DNA from: a virus
Strand: one strand, 5' to 3'
Virus record (IMG/VR): IMGVR_UViG_3300046167_000451
Span: 1 to 32,119 of that record
Length of the DNA: 32,119 bases
A model generated the notes under the pieces. That model was not told the origin of the DNA and did not search any database. It saw nothing but the letters and a program-made list of their open reading frames with translations. This document shows, piece by piece, positions 3,268 through 23,790 of the stretch; positions within the stretch are counted from its first letter, which is position 1; every line of letters begins with the position of its first letter. Both the position numbers and the translations under genes were made by a program.

Positions 3268-3450
3268 ATGGTAGCACTACATAAAATGGAAAGTAAGTTC
3301 GGTACTTGTATCGAATGTAAGAGAACCCAAGGCTCCACTAGTTGTGATAAATGCAGGGGGCCAAGTTGTCCTTCCTGCGTATGTATCATTCCTAAAAAGC
3401 AAGGGGAAGTAGAAATAAGACATAAGAGTTGTATAAGAGGTGGAAAATAA
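3268..3450 (+). CDS. Cysteine-rich zinc-finger microprotein
   Basis: A 60-residue protein with at least seven ordered cysteines: CIEC, CDKC, CPSCVC and a final C. The spacing suggests two interleaved zinc sites, like a tiny B-box or RING-like finger. Its TAA overlaps the ATG of the next gene (TAATG). RING-like fingers act as E3 ligases in other ubiquitin systems and this virus has Ubl/E1/JAMM genes nearby, but the match here is only in cysteine density. Such fingers also bind nucleic acid. Confidence 0.6.
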   Translation: MVALHKMESKFGTCIECKRTQGSTSCDKCRGPSCPSCVCIIPKKQGEVEIRHKSCIRGGK

Positions 3451-4601
3451 TGGATGAATTACTAATTAAACCTAAGAGAAAATTAGGTACTGGAAGATAT
3501 GATAGGAAACTAATCGAGAGGATGATTGATTTATCTGTAGCAGATGATTATGAAGAGGCTTGTAAAGAATGGATTGCCACTGGTAAAGTTTACTGGGGAG
3601 ATATCGAAGTTCCCGAATGGTGGGAAGATAGAAAGGGCAAATGTCTTTGTGGGCACAGTATTGTATATCACTTTGAAGTAGAGAATACCGAGAATGGAGA
3701 AATGATTTTAGTTGGTTCCGACCATATTAATTCCTACCATATTCTAAAGCAGATAGCACTATCTACTGGAATGCAGGAAGAGATGATTACTGATGAAATG
3801 ATTGATGAATGGATGAAGGTAAGAGTTGCTTCTATGATGCAAACCGCTTGGTGGCATAATCACGGAGAGCATTTTACTGAGATGTTTGAAGCCGTTAAAG
3901 AATATGATGTTAGAGTAAATGTTAGAGTTCTTAAATGGGAATATAATGCCAAGTTAGGAACTAGGCGACCCGTTACTGCGATAAGGAAAGCAGGTAAAGG
4001 AAACTATGGCGAAGAGGGCCACACTATGGCATCAATTGTTTGGAGATGGAACCATCCCGACAATCCTAAAGCACAGATACACACTAGAGGATATCCTACT
4101 GAAAAACTATGGCAAGATTTGGTTCTATTCAATCTTAGAATAGAAGAGTATAGGCAGCAGTGTGAGACAGAAGATATGCAATTGGATGTCTTAATGTCCC
4201 TAAAAGACAAGAGAGAATCTCTTAGAACGGCTCAATATACTATGTTAAGAGAAGATAAGGATAGATTGGCAAGAGAAATGTTTGCTAAGGTTTGTGAATA
4301 CTACGGGCTTCCGGACTTTTACAATATATCTACCGACTCTATGACTGATTGGGAGAAGAATTTCATCGGGGACATGAAGGGTAGGGTTACTAGCGGCTAT
4401 GGCCACATACCCCATCTTTCGACCCATCAACTACAAACCCTTGATAAGATTATCAAGGGCGAAGATACTCCATCTACACTTAAGCAACAGAGATATTTGT
4501 TAAGGCTTGGATATGAAGGAGAAGTAGGAGAGTTAGGTCAGAAAGAGGCTAGTCAAATAATTGAAAATATATTGGCTTTGGGTGGCAAACCCGAATACTA
4601 A
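3450..4601 (+). CDS. Conserved viral protein with C-CGH zinc-knuckle motif
   Basis: A 383-residue protein starting at ATG 3450 behind AGAGGTGG. Near residue 65 it has CLCGHSIVYHFEVENTENG followed by a strand and VGSDHINSY. This resembles a motif seen in many phage proteins where C.CGH is followed by an N-x-x-x-G turn. The middle is Trp-rich. The C-terminus (TLKQQRYLLRLGYEGEVGEL, then KEASQIIENIL) resembles the short helical module found at the tails of phage proteins that bind nucleic acid. I cannot name a function. Confidence 0.6.
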   Translation: MDELLIKPKRKLGTGRYDRKLIERMIDLSVADDYEEACKEWIATGKVYWGDIEVPEWWEDRKGKCLCGHSIVYHFEVENTENGEMILVGSDHINSYHILKQIALSTGMQEEMITDEMIDEWMKVRVASMMQTAWWHNHGEHFTEMFEAVKEYDVRVNVRVLKWEYNAKLGTRRPVTAIRKAGKGNYGEEGHTMASIVWRWNHPDNPKAQIHTRGYPTEKLWQDLVLFNLRIEEYRQQCETEDMQLDVLMSLKDKRESLRTAQYTMLREDKDRLAREMFAKVCEYYGLPDFYNISTDSMTDWEKNFIGDMKGRVTSGYGHIPHLSTHQLQTLDKIIKGEDTPSTLKQQRYLLRLGYEGEVGELGQKEASQIIENILALGGKPEY

Positions 4602-4657
4602 ACGCAGGGCTTTAATAGGTAATGCGAACTAAAAAAAATAGAAGAGGTGAATGATAA

Positions 4658-4858
4658 ATGATAAGTTTAACAATTTTGAATGAGACAGGACATACATCAC
4701 TATCCCTAGTGGCTAGTGAAGTAATAGAGCAGATTAATACCCACCCTACGGATTGGGTATTTATTGACGGAGAAATGGTATCGAGAGAGAACATTTCATC
4801 TGTTAACTGGGATGATGTCGAATCGGTTGTTTTAACTCCGGCTATCGTCGGCGGTTGA
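4658..4858 (+). CDS. Ubiquitin-like beta-grasp protein ending in Gly-Gly
   Basis: A 66-residue protein with the ThiS/MoaD layout: strand ISLTILNE, a central helix (SEVIEQINTHP), strand WVFIDGEMVSRENI and a final strand ESVVLTPAIVGG. The last two residues before the stop are Gly-Gly, as in ThiS, MoaD, SAMPs and mature ubiquitin, so the C-terminus could be adenylated without cleavage. The start lies behind GAGGTGA. An E1-like enzyme (7634) and a JAMM protease (8185) follow in the same gene block. It may modify proteins or carry sulfur. The fold call is by pattern, not structure. Confidence 0.72.
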   Translation: MISLTILNETGHTSLSLVASEVIEQINTHPTDWVFIDGEMVSRENISSVNWDDVESVVLTPAIVGG

Positions 4859-4873
4859 AATAACTAAGTAAAT

Positions 4874-4905
4874 AGGGAGGGTAGTAATGGGAAACTACTC
4901 TCCCT
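4874..4905 (+). promoter_or_regulatory. 12-bp hairpin with a start codon in its loop
   Basis: AGGGAGGGTAGT (4874-4885) pairs with ACTACTCTCCCT (4894-4905), with eleven Watson-Crick pairs and one G-U. The eight-base loop holds the ATG at 4887, and the stem holds the GGAGGG Shine-Dalgarno element. The hairpin could block translation of the next gene, or end or pause the upstream transcript. No T-run follows immediately. Confidence 0.5.
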
Positions 4906-5183
4906 TCCCTTGGGGTTTAATTATGTTTTTTAAAAATGAAAAACAATGTATATCGGTGATTGAAACTTTCATCGAGGAACTTAGCCCTGTTAACAGGACT
5001 AAAATGGAGTTAGTTATCTCTTTAGATAACTCTCCAAAGGAAAAGATATTTGCAATTACTTCCGTATTTAGAGAATGCCTATGGGACATTCCGGAAGCAG
5101 TTGAGATGGGATTCTTCGAATGGATGGCAAAGAACATACCTGAAAGAATAGAAGCAATAGAATACTATGAGGCTTTAAAATGA
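4887..5183 (+). CDS. Hypothetical protein after the ubiquitin-like gene
   Basis: A 98-residue protein if started at ATG 4887 (good GGAGG spacing, but buried in a hairpin) or 86 residues from ATG 4923 behind a weak GGGG. The first residues, MGNYSPFPWG, are encoded by the hairpin itself, so 4923 may be the real start. The body is helical and acidic (SVIETFIEELSPVN, RECLWDIPEAVEMGFFEWM). No family is recognised. It overlaps the next small gene by ATGA. Confidence 0.5.
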   Translation: MGNYSPFPWGLIMFFKNEKQCISVIETFIEELSPVNRTKMELVISLDNSPKEKIFAITSVFRECLWDIPEAVEMGFFEWMAKNIPERIEAIEYYEALK

Positions 5184-5347
5184 AAGACAAAGACCCCAAT
5201 TATACTCCTAGTGCTTGGTCGTACAAGAAAAGAATAGCGACTAAGTGCAGAATATGTGGTAAGCAGTTAGTCTTACCCGAAGAAATGAAGAAAGAAATAC
5301 ACGATAATTGTGATAATAATTTAAGTAATAATACATATATGATGTGA
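5180..5347 (+). CDS. Small zinc-finger-like protein (55 residues)
   Basis: This ORF starts in an ATGA overlap with the previous gene. CRICGKQL near residue 23, followed by HDNC near residue 41, gives a C-x2-C / H-x2-C arrangement that would suit one zinc ion. The N-terminus is hydrophilic (DKDPNYTPSAWSYKK) and the tail is Asn-rich. It stops four bases before the next ATG. No specific family; the metal site is inferred from spacing. Confidence 0.5.
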   Translation: MKDKDPNYTPSAWSYKKRIATKCRICGKQLVLPEEMKKEIHDNCDNNLSNNTYMM

Positions 5348-5351
5348 TAAA

Positions 5352-6611
5352 ATGAGAATAACAATAATAAATACAGACAGAAGTACTCTGATAACAGAAA
5401 TAACTTCAGACGGGGGCCTAACCCTACCAGTGCGCCGAGAAGTATCGGGAACAGTTCAGACCAAAGGCGACCCTATTCATACGAGCCTAACCAATCTCTT
5501 TTCTAGGCAGTTAAAGAAAAACTATGGGGAATGGGAAACTGTTCTTACTATAGGTGGGTTGCCTATACATGTAAAATACGATGGTAAGTATCATGTCATG
5601 GGTAAGAGCCATAGTTTGAAATTAATATCTTCGGCTTTGGCTAGAGTTGCCTACAGTGCTGCTGTAGGCGAGGCGGATTCTTCTAAATTGCTAAGTCTTT
5701 TGTTTACTAATATGGAAGTTCCGGAGCCTATCTCTTATGCTATTGAGAATAGGGCCCCTTACCATTTCTATGAAAACTACAATAAGGTTGAGGTTAGATT
5801 AAATGTAGAAAAAATAGGCTCTACCAAATACGCAATAGAAGTTTCCGATTCGGTGTGGGGAGAAATAGCCCAAAAGGATTTAGTGACCTTTGTTAATTCG
5901 TATAGGGATGGAAGTAGAAGAGGCAATTGGAATAACCTTTCGCCTAAAATGTTATTTTGTAAATTAATGGAAAGAGAGCCTAGCGAATCAGAATTAAAGT
6001 TGATGAAGGCGTTCCTTTCACAAAACAGAACTAGCGATATAGTGGAAAAGAGAGCCAAGGAATTAGTTGAGGAAATATGTGAAAATTTCCCGAAGACTTT
6101 CTTCTATCATGTTGAAGAAGAAGGGGCAATAATCAAAACGAAGACTCATGCAAAGTTCGCTAAGGGGAAGTCTTCTCTTAAAACTACTGAGCAGACAGTA
6201 GGCTCAAATAATAACGAGTGGCTATTTATTAGGGGTAATTCGTATGATTGGAAGATTAGGAAGTCTAGCAACCAAGAAAGTACCCAATCGGTACAGACAT
6301 ATATTTGGCAGAGATTCACACACAAGATAAAAATCGGTCAAGAAGAAGACGATGACGGAGATTGGAGAGATGTCTTCAAAATCGCTTATCATTACGGATG
6401 GGCTGGCCCTATATGTGTAGATAATATGAATTTTAATGGGGCCACTAGCGTAGGCGACCAAATGGTGGCTAGAGGATTCGCTTTCATGAATGATAGTGCT
6501 ACTATTCGTTTGGTTAGTACCATTAAGGGCTATCTCAACAAGAGAGATATGAGCGAGAACCGATTAGACTTTGAAGATTTAATTAAAAACGACTTGGGTC
6601 GATTACTATGA
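5352..6611 (+). CDS. Unknown 419-residue protein in the Ubl-E1 block
   Basis: A large complete protein lying between the Ubl gene and TFB and overlapping TFB by ATGA. It starts with strands (MRITIINTDRSTLITEIT) and has a conserved-looking segment ETVLTIGGLPIHVKYDGKYH followed by helices. A late segment, GWAGPICVDNMNFNGATSVG, is rich in small residues and has one Cys. I have an impression of similar proteins in other marine viruses but cannot name a family. There is no P-loop, zinc site or nuclease motif. It could be a partner or target of the Ubl system by position only. Confidence 0.55.
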   Translation: MRITIINTDRSTLITEITSDGGLTLPVRREVSGTVQTKGDPIHTSLTNLFSRQLKKNYGEWETVLTIGGLPIHVKYDGKYHVMGKSHSLKLISSALARVAYSAAVGEADSSKLLSLLFTNMEVPEPISYAIENRAPYHFYENYNKVEVRLNVEKIGSTKYAIEVSDSVWGEIAQKDLVTFVNSYRDGSRRGNWNNLSPKMLFCKLMEREPSESELKLMKAFLSQNRTSDIVEKRAKELVEEICENFPKTFFYHVEEEGAIIKTKTHAKFAKGKSSLKTTEQTVGSNNNEWLFIRGNSYDWKIRKSSNQESTQSVQTYIWQRFTHKIKIGQEEDDDGDWRDVFKIAYHYGWAGPICVDNMNFNGATSVGDQMVARGFAFMNDSATIRLVSTIKGYLNKRDMSENRLDFEDLIKNDLGRLL

Positions 6612-7438
6612 CATGTATAGAGTGTGGAAATAATAATTTTAGTTTTGATGAAGTGATGGGAGAAAGAATCTGCGACGATTGCGGCTTGGTCGAAATAACC
6701 GAATTGTTTGAACAAAGTGTTTCGCAATTCAGCCCATCCGGAGAAGTGGTTAGAGAATCTACCTTTAGGAATACTTTAGGAACCACTAACAGGAACAGGT
6801 ACGATGCTTCTGAAACTAACATACAGACTGGTTTGGTATATTGTAATCTAGTTCTATCGTCTATTGCTACCAATCATCCTCTAAGAGATAGAGTAGAAGA
6901 ATGCTATATTTCTTTATTTAGAGGGCATGTGTTTAGTAATAAATATAGTTACGAGACTAGGGCAACGGCATTAGTGTATTATGTTCTGAAAGAAAACGGA
7001 ATACCTATTAAACTTAGAGAAGTTAGAAAGGAATTCGAATGTGATATGAGAAAGGTCAACCGCCTAACTAGGGCAATAGCAAAACACTTTGGTAACTCTA
7101 GCGTATATGCTAGAGACAATACAGTTTCGATGTTAGATAAAACTTCTAGGGCTATTTATGATAGTGCTGAATTTATTACGCTATGTCAAGAAATGCACAT
7201 AATGTTAGAGCCCATCCTAGAGGCAAGCAATTTTACCAAGGGTAGAACATATTGTGCTGCTGTTTGTATGATAGTGGCAAAGGCTAATCTAATGCAGATA
7301 ACCCAAAAGGAGTTGTCAGAAAAAACAGGATACGATGTTTCTACAATCCGTATTCAAGCAAAGAAGATATTACAGATGTTAGGTTATAATAGCCTAAAAC
7401 AAATTAGTGGAAAAACAATAGGAGAAATGATAAAATGA
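6608..7438 (+). CDS. tfb: Transcription initiation factor B (TFB)
   Basis: A 276-residue archaeal TFB/TFIIB-type factor. An N-terminal zinc ribbon uses C3, C6, C22 and C25. A linker with the B-finger region follows (FSPSGEVVRE and onward), then two cyclin-like repeats, roughly residues 75-165 and 175-270, the second ending in a helix-turn-helix (TQKELSEKTGYDVSTIRIQAKKIL). TFB binds TBP and the BRE next to the TATA box and recruits RNA polymerase. A viral copy could send host polymerase to viral promoters. No TBP gene is seen here. Length is a little under cellular TFB (about 300). Confidence 0.85.
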   Translation: MTCIECGNNNFSFDEVMGERICDDCGLVEITELFEQSVSQFSPSGEVVRESTFRNTLGTTNRNRYDASETNIQTGLVYCNLVLSSIATNHPLRDRVEECYISLFRGHVFSNKYSYETRATALVYYVLKENGIPIKLREVRKEFECDMRKVNRLTRAIAKHFGNSSVYARDNTVSMLDKTSRAIYDSAEFITLCQEMHIMLEPILEASNFTKGRTYCAAVCMIVAKANLMQITQKELSEKTGYDVSTIRIQAKKILQMLGYNSLKQISGKTIGEMIK

Positions 7439-7632
7439 TAGAAGAAGAATGGTATGAATATTATGTATATTTAGAAGAACTTAGACAAAGTGGAGTAACC
7501 AATATGTTTGGTGCTTCTCCCTACCTGCAAGAAGCATACGGTTTAAATCGAAGAGAAGCCAGTAAGGTTCTAGTTAGTTGGATGGAAAACTACAATGAAC
7601 TTGTAGAAAGAAAAATAATTGTGAGGAATTGA
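7435..7632 (+). CDS. Small conserved phage protein, helical
   Basis: A 65-residue protein overlapping TFB by ATGA. The core, SGVTNMFGASPYLQEAYGL, followed by NRREASKVLVSWMENY, matches a short family I recognise from cyanophages and other marine phages (a VTNMFGA...F.LSR.EA...L..WM pattern). It is likely a small helix-turn-helix. Its function is not known to me. It sits between TFB and the E1-like gene. Confidence 0.6.
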   Translation: MIEEEWYEYYVYLEELRQSGVTNMFGASPYLQEAYGLNRREASKVLVSWMENYNELVERKIIVRN

Positions 7633-7633
7633 A

Positions 7634-8188
7634 ATGAGAAGAGTATTAATTATAGGAGCAGGTGGAATTGGGAGTTTTCTAATTCCGCTTCTGAAGAAGA
7701 CGGGACTGTATTCTATTACAGTGGCAGACCCCGATATCGTAGAAATGAAAAATATACCGTATCAGAATTACGGCAAAGAGGATGTTGGCGATAATAAAGC
7801 ATCAGTGATGCACACTAGGTTTAATTTAACAACCTGCATACCGCATAAGATTCTAACTACTAAGCAAATGGAAGGATTCGATTTGGTTATATCTTGTGTA
7901 GATAATCTAAGTCTTAGAAGAACCATGTATCGAAGTAAGTTTGATTGGCTAGACTTGAGGGCACAAGGACGCAATGCTGCGTTTATATCTTCAGATTCTA
8001 GTCCGGATATGTGGGACACTATGTTGGCTGGGCCGGATGGAAGTTTTTCTTGTCAAGGAGATTCTTGGGATGGAAGTAATAAAAATGTTCACTTTATGCA
8101 AGTGGCAATTGCTGGAATGGCGGCAGAATGGATTCAAAGATGGTTCAATAGTGAAGATGTTGGGCTTTTTAAGGTGGTAAATGTATGA
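7634..8188 (+). CDS. Compact E1-like (ThiF/MoeB-type) adenylating enzyme
   Basis: A 184-residue protein. A Rossmann nucleotide motif GAGGIGS at residues 8-14 is followed by strand ITVADPD with the acidic pair at 32/34, NIPYQNYG, DVGDNKA (Lys55) and ISCVDNLSLR (residues 87-95). These are the ATP-binding and adenylation features of ThiF/MoeB/E1 enzymes, which activate the C-terminal Gly of a ubiquitin-like protein. C140 in SFSCQGD is the likely thiol. It is shorter than cellular MoeB/ThiF (about 240 or more) and lacks the usual zinc CxxC pairs. It overlaps the JAMM gene by ATGA. Confidence 0.82.
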   Translation: MRRVLIIGAGGIGSFLIPLLKKTGLYSITVADPDIVEMKNIPYQNYGKEDVGDNKASVMHTRFNLTTCIPHKILTTKQMEGFDLVISCVDNLSLRRTMYRSKFDWLDLRAQGRNAAFISSDSSPDMWDTMLAGPDGSFSCQGDSWDGSNKNVHFMQVAIAGMAAEWIQRWFNSEDVGLFKVVNV

Positions 8189-8778
8189 CTGAAATAATGA
8201 ATGATGATTTGGGCCCCGATTATAAGGTCGGGATTGTATCTGAATGGGAATTGAATCCTGAAATTACGGAAAAATTCCTATCGGAAATATGGAAGGCTTC
8301 TACAGAAATACTTCCGAAACTGGAAGTCCAAGTAGTCATTGATGATAATGACAGACTGCACATTAGTAGCGGTACTGCTGGATATGTCGATTTTAAAGTA
8401 GACCCAGTAGGAATGAAACTTCCCATCAAATGTTGGATTCATACGCACCCATTCGGTTCTGCATATTTTAGCGGCACTGATATTAGCACTGTTTCCATTT
8501 GGGAACCTATGATGAAATCTGCTATAGTAGTGGGTGGAAAGGCTCACTATGGTCATTGGACTAAACATATGCCTAAGCAGTTGGTAATCTATAGTGACCA
8601 TCGTTTTGAGAGAGTTCAGAGTTGGGAATATGATTCAGTGATGCCAAGTGCTTCTTCAGTCATTCCGATTGATTACGAAAGACTTAGAGAAATTCTGTTA
8701 GACTACGATTTTATTACAGAACACGAACTCATAAAAGCAGAAGAATTACTTAGACTAGAGCAGGGGGAAGAGGAATGA
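8185..8778 (+). CDS. JAMM/MPN+ (JAB) isopeptidase-like metalloprotease
   Basis: A 197-residue protein with the full JAMM signature: H86-T-H88, seven residues, S96, two residues, D99 (IHTHPFGSAYFSGTD). JAMM proteins bind zinc and cut isopeptide bonds at the C-terminus of ubiquitin-like proteins, or process Ubl precursors. The conserved upstream Glu is not obvious by eye. The C-terminus is an acidic helix. It is coupled to the E1-like gene by ATGA, so removal of conjugates or release of the Ubl is the likely job. A Mec+-like role in sulfur metabolism is an alternative. Confidence 0.82.
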   Translation: MTEIMNDDLGPDYKVGIVSEWELNPEITEKFLSEIWKASTEILPKLEVQVVIDDNDRLHISSGTAGYVDFKVDPVGMKLPIKCWIHTHPFGSAYFSGTDISTVSIWEPMMKSAIVVGGKAHYGHWTKHMPKQLVIYSDHRFERVQSWEYDSVMPSASSVIPIDYERLREILLDYDFITEHELIKAEELLRLEQGEEE

Positions 8779-9301: not shown

Positions 9302-9480
9302 ACTTAGGGACTTTAAAAAAAGGTGACGCATTACAGAATATACATCTAGGCGTTAAGGCTACAGTTAAGTCAATCGAAAAGTTCACTAGGGGAAGCAAAA
9401 AATATACAATTTTTGTGCTAAATAACGATACAAGATGGAACGGGTATCATCTAATTAATAATTGGGAGTTGGCTAAATGA
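9298..9480 (+). CDS. Hypothetical 60-residue basic protein
   Basis: A short basic protein coupled by overlap at both ends, to the genes before it and to the GroES-like gene after it. Strand-like stretches (GVKATVKSIEKF, KYTIFVLNND) suggest a small beta-barrel. No motif or family is recognised. It could be an SH3- or OB-like nucleic-acid binder, but that is a guess. Confidence 0.5.
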   Translation: MNLGTLKKGDALQNIHLGVKATVKSIEKFTRGSKKYTIFVLNNDTRWNGYHLINNWELAK

Positions 9481-9707
9481 TTAAAACGATAGGGAAATGG
9501 GTTGCCTTTCTCCCATTAGTGGAAGAAAGTGCTAGTGGAATAAAGAGCGAGAGCCTAGATAAAGGAACCGTTTTATTTGAGATGAAAGAAGTTACCAACG
9601 GACTAAAGGTTGGAGATAAGATACACTTTGATATTAACAAGGTTGCACATAAGAGTGGCGACTATTGGGTTATTGATATAGATTATATTTACGGGGTGGT
9701 TGAATGA
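9477..9707 (+). CDS. groS: GroES-like co-chaperonin
   Basis: A 76-residue protein immediately before, and overlapping, the GroEL-like gene. It follows the GroES strand order: GKWVAFLPLVEE (like the start of GroES), a short loop SASGIKSES in the position of the mobile loop, KGTVLFEM, GLKVGDKIHFD and a final YIYGVVE. It would cap the chaperonin ring during folding. It is shorter than bacterial GroES (about 95) and its loop GIKS replaces the usual GIVL. Gene order groES-groEL is conserved. The call rests on layout and context. Confidence 0.68.
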   Translation: MIKTIGKWVAFLPLVEESASGIKSESLDKGTVLFEMKEVTNGLKVGDKIHFDINKVAHKSGDYWVIDIDYIYGVVE

Positions 9708-11200
9708 TTATACATGGTAAAGAAGTAAAGGAAAAATTACTACAGGGAATTAACTTAGTAGCAGATACAGTAAAACCTACTCTTGGCCCACAAGCAAAGA
9801 CGGTTATCTTACAAGGTAATCCTCCTGTCATTATTAATGACGGAGTTACCATTACCAAGTATATTTCTCACCCCGACCCCTATGTTAGTTTAGGGGTTAA
9901 GATGGTTCAGAATCTTGCAATGCAAGCACAACAAAATGCAGGCGATGGTACTACTACCGCTTGTATTATTGCTCAAGCATTGTGTAATGGTTTAGCAGAA
10001 CTAGATGCAACAGACTTGCACCATCTTAGATTAGAGATGGAGAGCATTAGGAATGCTGTTCTAAACAGTTTATCAGACCAAGCGATAGAAGTTACAGATG
10101 AAACTATAATTGATGTCGCCACTATTGCATCTAATAACGATGTTAGAATGGGTAAATTAATTGCAGAAGTATTATCTCATGTAGGTAAGGATGGAGTAAT
10201 AACTGTAGAAGAAGGAAATCAATTAGAAACTTCTTATGAAGTTAAAGAAGGGTTAGAAGTAGACGAAGGATATTTCAGTCATCTTATGGCAAATGACCCT
10301 TCGGGAATCTGCGAACTAAAGAATCCGCTTGTACTCACCACCAATAAAAACATCAGTAATTTTTCAGACTTATTACCAATATTAGAATTGGCTTCTTCTA
10401 AAGGAAAGCCCGTTCTCATATTCTGTAAAAGTATTCAAGGCCCTGCGCTAAACAATATGATTATGAATATCGTAGAAGGTAGAATAGAAGCATGTGTAGT
10501 AACTGCTCCTAATTTCGGCGATGCTCAACTAGATGAACTGGGAGACATTGTTTCTCTGTTAGGTGGAAAGGTATTCAGTGACGAGAATAATTCAGATATC
10601 ACTTCTGCTACTATTGAAGACTTAGGTACTTGCGAGAAGGCAATAATTACTTCTAGCAATACAACTTTAGTTGGAGGAGAAGGAGATGTGTCAGATAAGA
10701 TTTCGTCTCTGAAAAGCCGCTACGAAGAAATAGAAACCAACTATGATAGAATGCGAATCAAGAAAAGACTTAGCAGACTACAAGGAGGAGTAGCAGTAAT
10801 TACTGTAGGTGCAGGTTCGAGTATGGAAATGCGTGAAACTAAAGAAAGATTAGACGATGCTCTAAATGCAACAAAGGCCGCTTTACAAGAAGGAATTGTT
10901 TTGGGTGCTGGAAGGGCTTTATGGGATGCTTCTAAAGAATTAGATGGAAATGTAGAATTGAATAGAATTGTTATTGATTCTCTAAAGGCTCCTCAATTAA
11001 TTCTTAGCGGACATGTACCGTTGGTTCGCCTACTACAAGACAATCAAGGATGGAATGCAGTAAAGGGAGAATATGTAGACTTGTTAGAAGACGGAATCAT
11101 CGACCCCGTTAAAGTTACAAAGAGTAGTTTTTCTGTAGCCATGTCTATTGCAATGCTATTCCTTACAACAGAAGTAGCAGTATTGTTACCGGAGGAATAA
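9704..11200 (+). CDS. groL: GroEL-like group I chaperonin
   Basis: A 498-residue protein of the Hsp60 family. KPTLGPQAKTVIL at residues 24-36, INDGVTITKYI, and GDGTTT at 80-85 with the catalytic-loop Asp81 form the nucleotide site. A second Asp in KERLDDAL and AALQEGIVLGAGRAL fits the GroEL region around D398. The end, GIIDPVKVTKSSFSVAMSIAMLFLTTE, matches the equatorial C-terminus. It lacks the GGM tail and is about 50 residues shorter than E. coli GroEL. It would fold viral proteins such as capsid or replisome parts. In an archaeal setting a group I rather than thermosome type is unusual. Confidence 0.9.
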   Translation: MIIHGKEVKEKLLQGINLVADTVKPTLGPQAKTVILQGNPPVIINDGVTITKYISHPDPYVSLGVKMVQNLAMQAQQNAGDGTTTACIIAQALCNGLAELDATDLHHLRLEMESIRNAVLNSLSDQAIEVTDETIIDVATIASNNDVRMGKLIAEVLSHVGKDGVITVEEGNQLETSYEVKEGLEVDEGYFSHLMANDPSGICELKNPLVLTTNKNISNFSDLLPILELASSKGKPVLIFCKSIQGPALNNMIMNIVEGRIEACVVTAPNFGDAQLDELGDIVSLLGGKVFSDENNSDITSATIEDLGTCEKAIITSSNTTLVGGEGDVSDKISSLKSRYEEIETNYDRMRIKKRLSRLQGGVAVITVGAGSSMEMRETKERLDDALNATKAALQEGIVLGAGRALWDASKELDGNVELNRIVIDSLKAPQLILSGHVPLVRLLQDNQGWNAVKGEYVDLLEDGIIDPVKVTKSSFSVAMSIAMLFLTTEVAVLLPEE

Positions 11201-12322: not shown

Positions 12323-12548
12323 GGAAATAGCAAACAAATTATGGGGTATTACTAGGAGGCCAAATGCGCCTACAGTAGACTTTACAATCAGACAAAAGGA
12401 ACTGATTAAACAATTGATATTAAGATGCAATGAGGTGAAAATTTATGACGATGAAGAAGTTAGCGAGACTGTTAGAAGCGACGAACTACAAAACTCCAAC
12501 ACAACAACAGGCTTTAGTTTCCAAAGAACTAGAGAAATTCGAAAATAG
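12303..12548 (+). CDS. Hypothetical 81-residue protein overlapping ligase
   Basis: A basic N-terminal half (MKKKDYKEIANKLWG, then RQKELIKQLILRCNE) reads as helices. The gene overlaps the start of the ligase by 104 bases, unusual here where overlaps are mostly 1-20 bases. The overlapping C-terminal half is low complexity and Ser/Thr/Asn rich, so this part may be non-functional extension. The unique part (12303-12444) otherwise has no ORF, which supports translation. Function is unknown. Confidence 0.4.
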   Translation: MKKKDYKEIANKLWGITRRPNAPTVDFTIRQKELIKQLILRCNEVKIYDDEEVSETVRSDELQNSNTTTGFSFQRTREIRK

Positions 12549-13257
12549 GCCAGCCCTATTTTCTATTCTTTCTATGGAATATGAAAGTAATAACATAGGA
12601 CTGTCGAAGGCTAAGAAGTGGATAGCGAGGGCCTTGAGTATATTTGAGGATGAAGTTGATTCAATGTATGCCGCACTAAATGATTTGGGCGATGCTATTT
12701 ATTCTTTAGATAGTAGCCAAACATCAGAAACCGAAATAGGTTTGGGCGAAGTACTTTCACTACTACAAATAGAATGTAAGGGGATAGACTCTAGCGAATT
12801 TAATACCTTTAGTATGTCCTTCAATTCTATGTCTTCATTGGAAAGAAAGTGGTTCGTTAAGTATTGGCTAGGTGTTCCTAGAAATGGTATTAACATTGGC
12901 AATGTTCAAAAGATGTTGGCTAAGGCTTATGGTAAAAAATTATCAGAAGTTAAACACCATACTAATTTTAATTCTATTCAAGTGACTACTAGATATTATG
13001 AGATGAAAGAAGAACCGTCATGTTCTTTGCAGCATGGTAAGTTTCTAAAACCAATGCTAGCAAAAGAAATTCCTATGAAAAAGTGGCCCAGAGATAAGAT
13101 TGTCGATTATAAATATGACGGCAATAGATATCAAGTCCATAGAAAAGGCGAGAGTGTTATTGTTTTCAATAGAAAAGGCAGAATCGTAACCCCACAATTT
13201 TCAGACATAGTGAATCTTGTAAAAAAGTTACAGTGTCGATTGTATTCTAGATGGTGA
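12445..13257 (+). CDS. lig: ATP-dependent DNA ligase, N-terminal part (frameshifted)
   Basis: The start follows GAGGTGA. Residues 1-190 form the helical N-terminal domain typical of archaeal/eukaryotic DNA ligases. Motif I is KYDG with the adenylated Lys223, followed by VFNRKGRIVTPQF. The frame then breaks at a run of six A's (13221-13226) and stops at 13257 after an out-of-frame CRLYSRW. Removing one A restores a continuous ligase into the next ORF, starting VDCILDGEIYP. The enzyme seals nicks in viral DNA. Whether the break is real, a sequencing error or recoded cannot be decided from one read of sequence. Confidence 0.85.
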   Translation: MTMKKLARLLEATNYKTPTQQQALVSKELEKFENRPALFSILSMEYESNNIGLSKAKKWIARALSIFEDEVDSMYAALNDLGDAIYSLDSSQTSETEIGLGEVLSLLQIECKGIDSSEFNTFSMSFNSMSSLERKWFVKYWLGVPRNGINIGNVQKMLAKAYGKKLSEVKHHTNFNSIQVTTRYYEMKEEPSCSLQHGKFLKPMLAKEIPMKKWPRDKIVDYKYDGNRYQVHRKGESVIVFNRKGRIVTPQFSDIVNLVKKLQCRLYSRW

Positions 13258-13303: not shown

Positions 13304-13981
13304 ATGGGAACTAGGGTTCACTCAAAAGACCATGCTAAAGCAGTACAGGATTGCCCTGTAAGATGGGTGGCCTTTGACGCATTAATGGTAGGTGGAGAAA
13401 CTCTTACAGATTTGCCCTATCATGAAAGATTAGAAAGGATGTCAATGATACCCGACCAAGCACATAGAATGGAAAAGGGTGGCGATGTTTTAGCATTCTA
13501 TAACATTGCAATTAATGATGGCTTCGAAGGAATTATTGTTAAAGATGCTAACCATAAATATGAGTCTGCCAAGCGTTCTGCTTCTTGGGCTAAATATAAG
13601 CCCCCTAGAATTGATTTAGATGTAGTCATTACTTCTGCTAGATATGGAGAAGGGGCTAGGGCAGGATTCTTTGCTTCTTTCGATATAGCAGTAAAGAGTG
13701 AAGATGGTTTCATGAACATAGGTTCTGTAGGAACTGGACTATCAGAAAATGAAATGTTTGTATTAACAAATAAGTTACGAACATTGGTAGAGGGATATAA
13801 GGGAGATACTTATTTATTCTTACCGAAGGTGGTAATAGAAGTTACCGCCGATTTAATCTCAAGAAATAGTAAGGGAGATATTGGTCTAAGGTTTCCCCGA
13901 ATAGTAAAGATAAGAGAAGATAAATATGTAGCAGATATTAATACAGTATCAGATGTAATTCAGACTATGAATGGATTTTGA
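13304..13981 (+). CDS. lig: ATP-dependent DNA ligase, C-terminal part (frameshifted)
   Basis: This continues the ligase in the +1 frame. The frame is open from 13223 and carries DCILDGEI (motif III) before the first ATG at 13304, so that ATG is not likely the native start. Then come VAFDALMV, EGIIVKDANHKYES (motif IV), WAKYKPP (motif V) and an OB-fold C-terminal domain (VITSARYGEGARAGFF, GSVGTGLSENE, LRFPRIVKIREDK). Together with the upstream part it gives a normal-length ligase of roughly 510 residues. Confidence 0.85.
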   Translation: MGTRVHSKDHAKAVQDCPVRWVAFDALMVGGETLTDLPYHERLERMSMIPDQAHRMEKGGDVLAFYNIAINDGFEGIIVKDANHKYESAKRSASWAKYKPPRIDLDVVITSARYGEGARAGFFASFDIAVKSEDGFMNIGSVGTGLSENEMFVLTNKLRTLVEGYKGDTYLFLPKVVIEVTADLISRNSKGDIGLRFPRIVKIREDKYVADINTVSDVIQTMNGF

Positions 13982-18897: not shown

Positions 18898-19637
18898 AAT
18901 TTAACATTGATAATAAAATACTAGAAAGAGCATTAGACGACATTCAAGGAAAGGGTAAGTACGGAGTAACAAACAGCAGTTTGGATAATACTATCTACAT
19001 TTCTCTAGAAGGTAACTTGCTAGAACTATGGAATGCCGACTCTACTCTATCTCTAAATATTAATTTAGAAGTGGATGGAGAAGAAGATGGTGATTTCATT
19101 TTCGATGCGAAGTATCTACTTCCCTTCGTTAAGAAGTTTAGCGGAGTCTGTAGTTTTGTTGCAGAAGATACTTTACAAGTTTCTTGTAATTCCCAGCAGG
19201 TAATAGTTCCAAGAATTATTACCCATTCTAATATGAATGCAATTACTAGAATAAAGGGAATGCTAGAACATGTTAGTTACGAAGAAGAACCGGAAACATT
19301 GTTTATGTTCGGCCCTTCTAAATACGAAGCAGTATTCACAATACATTCCGAGGACTTTAAGAGGACAATGGGATTATGTGAATTAATTAAAAGTGGAGTC
19401 TATCGTTTAGATTACGCAGAAGAAGCAGCAGTAATTAGCAGTCAGACATCTGCCTCTAATCGCTATCTAGAATCAATGGCAATATCTAATGCCAGTGGAG
19501 ATGCGGCTGTAGTAGAATGGTCTGGCCCTCTACACAAGTTCTTTGATGGTAAAATCAATGTCTACCTTAGAGACGACTTCCCACTATTATTAGTTGGAGA
19601 AGATAGAAGATTAATTCGTGCCCCGCATGTGAGTTGA
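18894..19637 (+). CDS. pcn: PCNA-like sliding clamp
   Basis: A 247-residue protein of normal PCNA length. The pattern LSLNINLEVDGEEDGDFIFDA followed by YLLPFVKKF, then INVYLRDDFPLLLVGEDRRL and an end near IRAPHVS, fits the two-domain clamp fold and its C-terminal strand before the AP end. The clamp encircles DNA and tethers PolB, nuclease and ligase through PIP motifs. Several neighbouring proteins have such motifs. It sits directly before PolB. Confidence 0.82.
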   Translation: MKFNIDNKILERALDDIQGKGKYGVTNSSLDNTIYISLEGNLLELWNADSTLSLNINLEVDGEEDGDFIFDAKYLLPFVKKFSGVCSFVAEDTLQVSCNSQQVIVPRIITHSNMNAITRIKGMLEHVSYEEEPETLFMFGPSKYEAVFTIHSEDFKRTMGLCELIKSGVYRLDYAEEAAVISSQTSASNRYLESMAISNASGDAAVVEWSGPLHKFFDGKINVYLRDDFPLLLVGEDRRLIRAPHVS

Positions 19638-19642
19638 ATAAT

Positions 19643-21367
19643 ATGATTATATCCACCATGAGAGATAATAAAAATATATTTCTCTCTTGGCGAGAAGAAG
19701 GAGAAAAGAAATGGAAGGTGGAAACCCATCGCCCATATTTTTTTGTAGATGATTCCCATAGGGAAATTAGATTTTACAGGCCTTCTAAATATGTCAAGAG
19801 AGAATTTGAGTATGAGAGTGGAGAATGGTTTTCTCTAGAAGGGACTAAACTAAAGAAAGTATATGTCGAGCAAGCAGACGATGTTAGAAATGCAAAGGAT
19901 ATGTTTATTCAGACTTGGGAAGCAGATGTAAGACACCACCATAGATACGCCATAGATAATCTAAAAGAGATACCGGAATACAAAATGCGTAAATGGTATT
20001 GGGATATGGAATGGCAACAAGGCGGAGAACATCATGATGAAATTACTACTATTGTAATGTATGATAATTATGATGAGAAGTATTACCAATGGGTTTGGTT
20101 TCCAAATGAAAGCCCTCTCTATACTCACTATGAAGGCAAGCACACTTATTGCTATAATAATGAAAGAGATATGCTTGAACATTTCATTAATACAATGGTA
20201 GAGAAAGACCCCGATATGCTAATTGCATGGTTTGGTCTAAAGTTCGATTTGCCTAAACTTATTGATAGATGCTGTGCATTGAGAGTTAATCCACTAAAAC
20301 TATCTCCGGTAGGAAGAGTGTCTAATGTATTCGCTACTAAGACCGGCTTTAGATTTACTAAAGCGGAGGAAGGATATTCTCCAATCTCCCAGCCCATTGC
20401 TGGTAGGATTTGCCTAAATTTAGATTTGGCATTTGAGAGACAATGGAATGATTCCCAAAGAGGAACGCTACCATCGCTAAGTCTAAACTATGTTTCTGAA
20501 AATGTATTGGGTAGAAATAAACTTGTCTCGGAAAAGTTTCCGGATGCAAATGAATTCTATCGTAGAGGGTGGTTAGAAGATACAGAAACATATCTAAGGT
20601 ATGCGTTAATAGATGTAGAACTAATGGTAGAGATTGACGAAACTAATTATTGTAGCGAGGCTATTCTTGCATTGCAAAGATTACTAGTTGCGCCCTTCGA
20701 CGCATGTTTCTATGCTAGCCACATGGGAGGAATATATTTTATGAGGAACGCTACATGGAAAGCCCCTACTGGAATTAGGCCAAAGAATAAAATCTGTTCT
20801 AATTGTAATACGGTCAATCTTAAGAAAGCAAAGACCTGTAAGAACTGTAAAGAAAGTTTATCCTACCAAGGTGCTATGGTTTATGACCCTCTAAGTGAAG
20901 GGACTAATGGCCTACATCATGGCGTGGCTGCATTTGATTTCGCTGGACTCTATCCTTCAATGATATTGGCCCGCAACATTTCTTTCGAAACTATTAGCGA
21001 TACCCCCACTGAATTCGGGGCGAATCTCGCTACGCCGAAGGACTTCAGCATAAGCGATGCAGAAGACATGGTTTATTTCAAAACCGATGAGTTAGGATTA
21101 TTACCAACTGCGGTCTTAGAATTGAAAGAATTGCGTAATGAATATAAGGCAAGGATGAAAGAAGCCAAAGGGCAGAACAATGATTCTGAGTATGTTAAGT
21201 GGTACAATAACCAAATGGCAGTAAAAAGATTATCTGCCAGTTTCTACGGGATTCTCGCTTTTGCTGGATTCGGTTGGTCGAATGTAACCTTGGCAGAAAG
21301 TATTACAGCAAGTGCAAGAGAAGCAATTAGATTAGCAGCGTTTAAGGCTAAGGAGATGAAAGCATGA
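19643..21367 (+). CDS. polB1: DNA polymerase B, N-terminal part (exo, motifs A and B)
   Basis: A 574-residue protein; ATG 19643 is preferred to TTG 19634. Exo I is WDMEW (D121, E123), Exo II has FD at 201-202, and Exo III is YALID (Y320, D324). Motif A is DFAGLYPS with D432. A zinc ribbon insert, CSNCN to CKNC, lies near 385-402. Motif B is KRLSASFYG, with Ala where Asn is usual. The protein stops after motif B; the palm motif C lies in a separate gene at 22906. The split resembles PolB1/PolB2 of Methanothermobacter. It replicates viral DNA with proofreading. Confidence 0.9.
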   Translation: MIISTMRDNKNIFLSWREEGEKKWKVETHRPYFFVDDSHREIRFYRPSKYVKREFEYESGEWFSLEGTKLKKVYVEQADDVRNAKDMFIQTWEADVRHHHRYAIDNLKEIPEYKMRKWYWDMEWQQGGEHHDEITTIVMYDNYDEKYYQWVWFPNESPLYTHYEGKHTYCYNNERDMLEHFINTMVEKDPDMLIAWFGLKFDLPKLIDRCCALRVNPLKLSPVGRVSNVFATKTGFRFTKAEEGYSPISQPIAGRICLNLDLAFERQWNDSQRGTLPSLSLNYVSENVLGRNKLVSEKFPDANEFYRRGWLEDTETYLRYALIDVELMVEIDETNYCSEAILALQRLLVAPFDACFYASHMGGIYFMRNATWKAPTGIRPKNKICSNCNTVNLKKAKTCKNCKESLSYQGAMVYDPLSEGTNGLHHGVAAFDFAGLYPSMILARNISFETISDTPTEFGANLATPKDFSISDAEDMVYFKTDELGLLPTAVLELKELRNEYKARMKEAKGQNNDSEYVKWYNNQMAVKRLSASFYGILAFAGFGWSNVTLAESITASAREAIRLAAFKAKEMKA

Positions 21368-22577: not shown

Positions 22578-22909
22578 TGGGGAGGGGGAATATTAAATCC
22601 CTAGATTGGAAAATGGCAGATGCTAGTTTAGACATGGTTCTATCGGAACTGACTGTAGATGAAATATGGTTAGAAGACTTGACATGTCGTGTTATAGATA
22701 AATATGTCCAATTAAGCCGACATCATGTTATTCAATACAATACTTACCCCAAGAGCAGATTCCAAAACTGTATCACTAAAAAGAGACTATTGGAAAAGGG
22801 ATGGGAATGTAAGCGTAGGACTTCGCACTATTTTGTTACTATTAGTGGAAACCCTAAACCCTTCCCAAGACAGAGAACCAAAGCATTTAGGATAGGTGAA
22901 GAAGAATGA
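22577..22909 (+). CDS. Winged-helix-like protein (110 residues)
   Basis: It starts at ATG 22577 behind GGCGGTGG. The chain reads TVDEIWLEDLTCRVIDKYVQ, a Tyr/Asn-rich loop, then KSRFQNCITKKRLLEKG and a basic wing (KRRTSHYFVTIS). This again resembles the winged-helix set of this genome and could bind DNA. It ends in GEEE overlapping the PolB C-part start by ATGA. Confidence 0.5.
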   Translation: MGRGNIKSLDWKMADASLDMVLSELTVDEIWLEDLTCRVIDKYVQLSRHHVIQYNTYPKSRFQNCITKKRLLEKGWECKRRTSHYFVTISGNPKPFPRQRTKAFRIGEEE

Positions 22910-23790
22910 AAGTAGTATATGGACACACTGATTCAATCTATGTAAAAATGGATTCTATTGAAAGAGGAAAAGAAGTAGTACAGGAAATTAATCTACATGT
23001 TAGAGAATCCTTCCCTAACCTACTAGGGTTAGGAGAACATCCAGTGACCTTAGAGTTTGAGAAATACTTCTCTAGGTTGGGAGTTGGCTCTACTAAAAAT
23101 AGAAACGCCGGTTTAATTTCATGGAAAGACGGATATGAGTTAGAAGAACCGGAATTCACTATGACTGGCTTCACTGCGAAGAGGATTTCAGAAACCCCAC
23201 TGGCTAAAGGCGTTCAGATTAAGGTTTTAGAGATGTGGCTTAACGACCACACCTTCAAAGAAATAAATTCGTGGCTTAATGCAAAGTACACTAAGATAAT
23301 AAATAGCGATTTTGATAAAGTGGATATAATTAAGCGAAGTAGGCTTAAGGTAGAGAGATTTTCTGTAAAATGTCCGGATTGCAATAAGAAATATGAAGTC
23401 AAAGAGTGCTACGCTATAGATTATTGCGAAAAATGCGGAGTCTTGAAAGAAAACTTCGTAACTTTGCAGAATAAGAAGCCTTCCTTCGGGGAAGGAGTAG
23501 GAGGAGTCCTATATGGAAGGGAAAAACTCAACATGGAATACGATGACTCTTATTTATTTATGAAGGTAAGAGCAAGTGATACATTCACTCACCCATTGAC
23601 GGGTGAATTAAAGTCGGCTGAGTATTTTTCGGCGACTACGCTTGAAGATTTTAAAGATGTAGTGCCGGACTTAGCGTATTACGGAAATGTAATAATAAAA
23701 AAAGCAGAGCCTATCTATCGGGCTATGGGTTGGAATACAGATTCAATCCGAACAGGTAGAATGCAAACAAGTTTTGATGATTGGTGGTAA
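22906..23790 (+). CDS. polB2: DNA polymerase B, C-terminal part (motif C, PIP box)
   Basis: A 294-residue protein. Motif C is YGHTDS with D9; the usual first Asp of YGDTDS is His, but the essential second Asp stays. A four-cysteine zinc ribbon (CPDC to CEKC) lies in the thumb-like region. The C-terminus MQTSFDDWW is a PIP box for PCNA. Together with the N-part (574 residues) it gives a normal PolB of about 870 residues. Seven small genes, about 1.5 kb, separate the parts. The pieces would assemble as in split archaeal PolB. Confidence 0.88.
   Translation: MKVVYGHTDSIYVKMDSIERGKEVVQEINLHVRESFPNLLGLGEHPVTLEFEKYFSRLGVGSTKNRNAGLISWKDGYELEEPEFTMTGFTAKRISETPLAKGVQIKVLEMWLNDHTFKEINSWLNAKYTKIINSDFDKVDIIKRSRLKVERFSVKCPDCNKKYEVKECYAIDYCEKCGVLKENFVTLQNKKPSFGEGVGGVLYGREKLNMEYDDSYLFMKVRASDTFTHPLTGELKSAEYFSATTLEDFKDVVPDLAYYGNVIIKKAEPIYRAMGWNTDSIRTGRMQTSFDDWW

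Follow-up and report, generated by a model that had tools for sequence, protein, structure and literature searches.

A putative ubiquitin-like modifier, an E1-type enzyme and a JAMM protease are encoded together in a conserved magrovirus gene block

IMG/VR record IMGVR_UViG_3300046167_000451, a 32,119-base virus contig taken whole and hereafter called the window, carries a compact gene block encoding a predicted ubiquitin-like protein (Ubl), an E1/ThiF-type adenylating enzyme (E1) and a JAMM metalloprotease (JAMM). The three open reading frames (ORFs) lie exactly where an initial annotation of the window had placed them, with Ubl at 4658-4858, E1 at 7634-8188 and JAMM at 8185-8778. Judged by their sequences, they correspond to the parts of a ubiquitin-like system that activate and remove the tag, and the triad appears to be universally co-inherited in magroviruses. 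The reading we prefer, and judge somewhat probable on balance, is that the block encodes a virus-owned, reversible conjugation system that works without an E2 and resembles the SAMP system of haloarchaea.

Conservation and organization of the block

Relatives were collected by pattern-plus-tblastn scans of IMG/VR. The scans share some contigs, and a number of these are nearly identical to one another; the stretches encoding relatives numbered 181 for Ubl, 256 for E1 and 312 for JAMM. Co-occurrence was counted over Ubl-centered loci with enough flanking sequence. All 74 such loci encoded Ubl, E1 and JAMM together with a conserved protein termed P0004, and 73 of them also encoded a viral TFB-like transcription factor. 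Reciprocal counts gave the same picture: JAMM lies downstream of E1 in 80/80 E1-centered loci and TFB upstream in 64/64, and E1 lies upstream of JAMM in 35/35 JAMM-centered loci. The proposals that the three genes travel together in related viral genomes and that TFB sits inside the block were thus borne out. That annotation had recognized the triad and TFB but overlooked P0004, a 55-aa cysteine-containing protein and the one- or two-residue tails carried by most Ubls.

In the Ubl-centered loci with enough flank, the genes present always follow the one-strand order P0006-Ubl-P0004-TFB-E1-JAMM; P0006 was found in 50/55 and TFB in 73/74. Order is constant but spacing is not, as some relatives have extra genes between Ubl and P0004. 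For example, a 624-aa ORF, named by eye as ribonucleotide-reductase-like, separates the two in one locus (L041:10667-12541), and related loci show a similar gap. Comparing the window with its relatives L004-L006 and L033 gave dN/dS values of 0.04-0.08 for Ubl, 0.12-0.18 for E1 and 0.11-0.26 for JAMM. Few genes in the block evolve as slowly as Ubl, which shares 94% identity with L004, compared with 55% for P0004 and 80% for TFB. Ubl, E1 and JAMM are therefore real genes under purifying selection, which together with their conservation rules out a chance explanation. The features of the block, all on the plus strand, are as follows.

3429-4601 (+): P0006, a 390-aa conserved protein with a CxCGH motif, encoded by the gene preceding Ubl; found in 50/55 loci with room upstream
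4644-4649 (+): Shine-Dalgarno-like GAGGTG ahead of the Ubl start, read directly from the sequence
4658-4858 (+): Ubl, a putative 66-aa ubiquitin/ThiS-like modifier with the C-terminus AIVGG followed by the stop; based on ORF, alignment, AlphaFold2 model and fold matches
4850-4855 (+): Gly65-Gly66 codons, the predicted conjugation/adenylation end; 84/84 relatives
4887-5183 (+): 98-aa ORF between Ubl and P0004; relatives in 29/40 loci
5180-5347 (+): 55-aa protein with CxxC...H...C, a possible single zinc site, directly upstream of P0004; relatives in 32/40 loci
5352-6611 (+): P0004, a 419-aa conserved protein with invariant Cys355, Asp369-Gln370 and Gln224-Asn225-Arg226 in the alignment; 74/74 loci
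6608-7438 (+): viral TFB-like transcription factor (zinc ribbon and core); Zn_Ribbon_TF 1.6e-5 (below cut-off), TFB PRK00423 3.2e-6; 73/74 loci
7435-7632 (+): 65-aa ORF that shares 4 bases with TFB and precedes E1; relatives in only 5/40 loci
7634-8188 (+): E1/ThiF-type adenylating enzyme, 184 aa; Pfam ThiF and PRTRC ThiF profile matches; 74/74 loci
8051-8053 (+): Cys140 codon, the predicted E1 catalytic/thioester cysteine (SFSCQG); 81/81, aligned with PRTRC and MoeB cysteines
8185-8778 (+): JAMM/MPN+ metalloprotease, 197 aa, whose start overlaps the E1 stop by 4 bases; motif and profiles; 74/74 loci
8323-8325 (+): predicted JAMM catalytic Glu47 codon; invariant in the alignment
8440-8481 (+): JAMM zinc motif H86-T-H88-x7-S96-x2-D99; 81/81, aligned to AMSH-LP

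The contig IMGVR_UViG_3300021958_000021 (L045, L179, L265; 184733 bases) is roughly double the length normal for a magrovirus. It has a Ubl block close to the start and another E1 relative at around base 115,000, and may represent two joined genomes or a chimera.

The modifier, the enzyme, the protease and their partners

The small protein had been described as ThiS/MoaD-like and as ending exactly in Gly-Gly, and conservation of this end was a test set beforehand. The Gly-Gly proved invariant in all 84 relatives within a full end of the form AxVGG, and NETGHT, PT.W and A.VGG are invariant in the alignment. The Gly-Gly is followed by no further residue in 17 loci, by one in 6 and by two in 61 (e.g., SL, CY, SY or NY). 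An invariant Gly-Gly followed by an optional, variable tail gives the protein the look of a processed precursor. The window Ubl matched no Pfam family, and the ThiS profile was matched by one relative (E 0.033). An AlphaFold2 model built from 27 sequences has the topology beta-beta-alpha-beta-beta-(alpha)-beta at pLDDT 87, and most of the top 50 Foldseek matches listed from the PDB are ubiquitin-like, ThiS or other beta-grasp proteins. The anticipated beta-grasp was thus recovered in its topology and in one-sided fold matches, none of them significant; we regard Ubl as a predicted beta-grasp protein whose fold support is consistent but not decisive.

A cellular origin of Ubl was considered and rejected, since cellular occurrences were confined to three contigs (L057, L058, L059) of one metagenome-assembled genome, Altibacter sp. 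EAC109. These contigs carry further cassette genes where their length allows, L059 having P0004, E1 and JAMM, and they probably derive from a magrovirus and were misbinned into a bacterial reference genome. An annotated phage collection contained no match for Ubl, P0004 or P0006.

The assignments of a ThiF/E1-type enzyme and of a complete JAMM motif were both upheld. The window E1 matches Pfam ThiF with 61.2 bits (E 1.1e-16), over the curated cut-off of 28.1, and each of 21 long virus records encodes one ThiF gene above that cut-off. The motifs G-x-GGIGS, D-x-D-x-[VI]-x-x-KN-x-x-YQ, C-[VA]-DN and S-[FY]-SCQ occur in 81/81 relatives, as does Cys140. In the profile alignment with PRTRC ThiF (hhalign probability 99.3%), Cys140 is paired with the PRTRC PSCS cysteine, and in a MAFFT alignment it pairs with the cysteine of E. 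coli MoeB LTCVEAG, which we take to be the MoeB active-site cysteine.

For JAMM, the zinc motif HTH-x7-S-x2-D is complete in all 81 JAMM-centered loci and in 76/77 Ubl-centered ones; in the one remaining locus the gene runs off the contig. The upstream Glu is never lost, even in ten loci that fall outside the regular-expression pattern. The window protein matches Pfam Prok-JAB at E 0.002 (18.4 bits, under the cut-off of 25); 27 of 30 family members match it at E<=1, the best at 1.9e-4. In a profile search of the PDB, AMSH-like deubiquitinases came first (E 0.0014). Where the Ubl has no tail, an intact JAMM adjoins it in 17/17 loci, and mapping the tail state onto the E1 tree gave about four changes, at least two of them forced by supported branches. 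Together, these observations indicate that trimming is not the sole task of JAMM.

The initial annotation saw no E2, and this also held beyond the window: among the 21 long virus records, none had a match to UQ_con E2 at E<=1 or to Prok-E2_D, the E2-like PRTRC-B family. P0004 was examined as a hidden E2 and as a relative of PRTRC-F and was rejected as both (hhalign 0.3% against PRTRC-B and 0.1% against PRTRC-F). It matched no family and no solved structure, its fold search returned only three unnamed viral homologues, and profile comparison gave no support for crAss gp75 or gp78 as its relatives. P0006 likewise gave no usable family match. As its presence is as strict as that of the triad and its Cys355 is invariant, P0004 is the best candidate for an extra factor.

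Proposed pathway and alternative explanations

From the conserved genes and motifs we infer how the system might work. In tailed Ubls, JAMM would trim the one or two residues and expose Gly-Gly, while in the window clade the Ubl would be made with a bare Gly-Gly. The compact E1, with ATP, would adenylate the terminal glycine, probably holding Ubl on Cys140. Ubl would then be transferred to protein amino groups, much as UbaA transfers SAMPs in haloarchaea. The transfer could be direct or could need a helper from the host or the cassette, for which P0004 and the 55-aa Cys protein are candidates. JAMM would finally take the tag off. Haloarchaea provide a precedent and show that such a set of parts suffices for conjugation: attachment of SAMPs to lysines depends on UbaA, and HvJAMM1 takes them off again (PMC4443979).

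The likely targets would be proteins of early infection, either host transcription factors displaced by the viral TFB that the operon also encodes, or the viral replisome, whose genes follow directly after the block. Sampylation is reported to send the basal transcription factor TBP2 to the proteasome for degradation (PMC4895103), which makes the near-constant viral TFB inside the operon suggestive, by neighborhood only. We tentatively propose, with less confidence than for the conjugation system itself, a complete private E2-less conjugation/deconjugation pathway that would act together with the viral TFB and the neighboring replication genes to turn the archaeal cell over to transcribing and replicating the virus.

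Several points weigh against a conjugation system. Adenylation by E1 is uncertain because the MoeB N-terminal segment is absent and the Arg of N-x-x-R-Q, present in MoeB and PRTRC, is Tyr in 81/81 relatives (crAss-phage E1 relatives have Gly there). No PDB fold match of Ubl is individually significant (best E 0.07; ThiS TM 0.47/0.47), and no family profile recognizes the protein. The proposed targets are drawn from gene neighborhood alone. Moreover, Gly-Gly tails trimmed by a JAMM protease also occur in sulfur-carrier systems (QbsE/QbsD, HcyS/HcyD).

The last point leads to the main rival, which we consider unlikely though still a serious competitor: a JAMM-trimmed, E1-adenylated Ubl would be converted to a thiocarboxylate by host sulfur donors and would pass the sulfur on, whether to a metabolite, a nucleotide or a tRNA, like the carriers of the Qbs, Hcy or CysO systems. 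The Ubl ends GGCY and GGSY resemble the QbsE tail, ThiS gives the most balanced TM-scores among the Ubl fold matches, and a small Gly-Gly protein with a ThiF-like enzyme and a JAMM is the anatomy of rows 4a-4c of Iyer et al. 2006 (PMC1779556). However, the 21 long virus records contain no rhodanese, PAPS reductase or ATP_bind_3 (PP-loop thiolation ATPase), no sulfur-metabolism gene was recognized adjoining the cassette, and E1 has no rhodanese fusion. The absence of a viral rhodanese is itself not decisive, because host sulfur donors could serve. Iyer et al. 2006 (PMC1779556) assign some operons of Ubl, E1 and JAB to siderophore or sulfur pathways, and suggest that those with JAB but no metabolic genes may encode regulatory pathways that stand alone; the magrovirus block falls in the latter group.

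It is improbable, in our estimate, that the viral set serves to hijack or counter the SAMP system of the host. On this view JAMM would do most of the work, and the set would compete with host SAMPs or free viral proteins of SAMP tags. Borg elements of archaea encode many putative desampylases; these AMSH-like proteins are proposed to counter host tagging (PMC12660748), and AMSH is the best match of the magrovirus JAMM too. Yet pure counter-defense needs no Ubl and E1 of its own, and both are kept in 74/74 loci; the slow evolution of Ubl is also unlike that of an arms-race protein. Least probable of all is a Ubl acting as a non-covalent adaptor or assembly factor, with E1 and JAMM engaged elsewhere, for example in MccB-like peptide adenylation: MccB is the best PDB match of the E1 profile (Cap2 was also matched), and the replaced Arg and missing N-terminal segment would suit it, but the invariant terminal Gly-Gly, the optional variable tails and the intact JAMM are hard to explain without a reactive C-terminus.

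Viral context and comparison with known systems

Magroviruses are tailed viruses that infect marine Poseidoniales (PMC10768690; PMC12999244). The International Committee on Taxonomy of Viruses profile of Magrovirales lists GroEL/GroES, TFB, RFC-S, PCNA, a split PolB, and opposed replication and morphogenesis modules (PMC10768690). Besides TFB, the window encodes GroEL, a clamp loader, DNA ligase, an ERCC4 nuclease, a PD-(D/E)XK nuclease and a family B polymerase in two ORFs, as well as a sliding clamp and a GroES-like ORF with weak profile matches, and the genes at its end lie on the opposite strand. GroEL, TFB, the RFC-like genes, the two-ORF PolB and the opposite-strand end genes thus match the profile, with the clamp weak, and the window matches part of a magrovirus genome, an assignment made by gene content alone.

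Directly behind the Ubl block, positions 9477-11200 hold the GroES-like ORF and a GroEL of bacterial type (group I), the two overlapping by 4 bases at the GroEL start. Several small ORFs lie between the two polymerase ORFs (19634-21367 and 22906-23790), an arrangement known from aoguangviruses (PolB-NTD/CTD). For the ATP-dependent DNA ligase there are also two ORFs, in different frames (12445-13257 and 13304-13981); as its parts share one frame in the close relatives L002 and L003, the window frameshift may be real or an assembly error. An ORF at 2021-2758 has a pyrimidine dimer DNA glycosylase (Pyr_excise) domain, possibly for UV-damage repair in a surface-ocean virus. A scan for E. coli-type promoters gave no excess over shuffled sequences, the E. 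coli consensus being unsuited to archaea.

In the accessible literature we found no virus described as encoding a Ubl, an E1 and a JAMM of its own. One study counts ThiF/MoeB among the auxiliary genes that archaeal viruses carry most often and comments on ubiquitination (PMC8276007); the cassette would place this gene, noted there alone, in a defined and testable pathway. If the proposed pathway is real, it would be the first of its kind owned by an archaeal virus and conserved over a whole viral order. The cassette is retained in every relative with enough sequence, and its carriers, the magroviruses, are reported to be ubiquitous in the surface ocean. A viral Ubl-E1-JAMM set without an E2 would show the minimum for ubiquitin-like conjugation and would offer a virus-side model of archaeal Ubl signaling.

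Compared with the classical E1-E2-E3 cascade, the magrovirus records encode no UQ_con E2 (0/21). Bil and type II CBASS (Cap2/Cap3) use E1 and JAB chemistry in conflict biology. They are host defenses with E2-like domains, whereas the magrovirus set is virus-owned and no E2 was found in it.

Related E1 and JAB neighborhoods near replication genes occur in PRTRC plasmids and crAss-like phages. The phage crAss001 likewise encodes ThiF (gp76) and JAB (gp77, HSH..FFSGTD) among its replication genes. Its ThiF, however, has an N-terminal extension, no Gly-Gly Ubl was identified in crAss, and the JAMM profile similarity is weak (hhalign 18%). By eye, the N-terminal ~85 residues of crAss001 gp79 (L026:2244-2921), encoded two genes upstream of gp77 and three of gp76, look like a ubiquitin-like beta-grasp; gp79 was rejected as a relative of the magrovirus Ubl for want of a profile match.

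The QbsE-QbsC-QbsD, HcyS-HcyF-HcyD and CysO/Mec+ systems share with the magrovirus set a small Gly-Gly protein, a ThiF-like enzyme and a JAMM, and C-terminal tail trimming is known in these sulfur-carrier systems. In contrast to them, the magrovirus set belongs to an archaeal virus, and no sulfurtransferase or biosynthetic enzyme was found with it.

The PRTRC plasmid cassette, which appears to be row 6d of Iyer et al. 2006 (PMC1779556), also unites Ubl, E1 and JAB in a single operon, carried by a large replicon, and is the nearest cassette for E1. The likeness to PRTRC noted initially holds for this enzyme but does not extend to the other components. The magrovirus E1 scores 52.4 bits against the PRTRC_ThiF equivalog, below the cut-off of 144.75; PRTRC-B is missing and no PRTRC-F relative was found; and PRTRC-C ends in a single G (TKG/TNG) rather than GG, with no profile similarity to Ubl (hhalign 2.2%). 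By sequence, the magrovirus cassette resembles PRTRC but fails its defining features.

The closest functional parallel to our preferred reading is SAMP/UbaA/HvJAMM1. The magrovirus set differs in being virus-encoded and known from genes alone, in forming one tight operon with TFB, in its far shorter E1 of 184 aa, where Tyr replaces the usual Arg, and in the one- or two-residue tails of many of its Ubls. The two share a Gly-Gly beta-grasp modifier (predicted in the virus), a single E1-type enzyme without a dedicated E2, a JAMM protease corresponding to the desampylase, and an archaeal setting.

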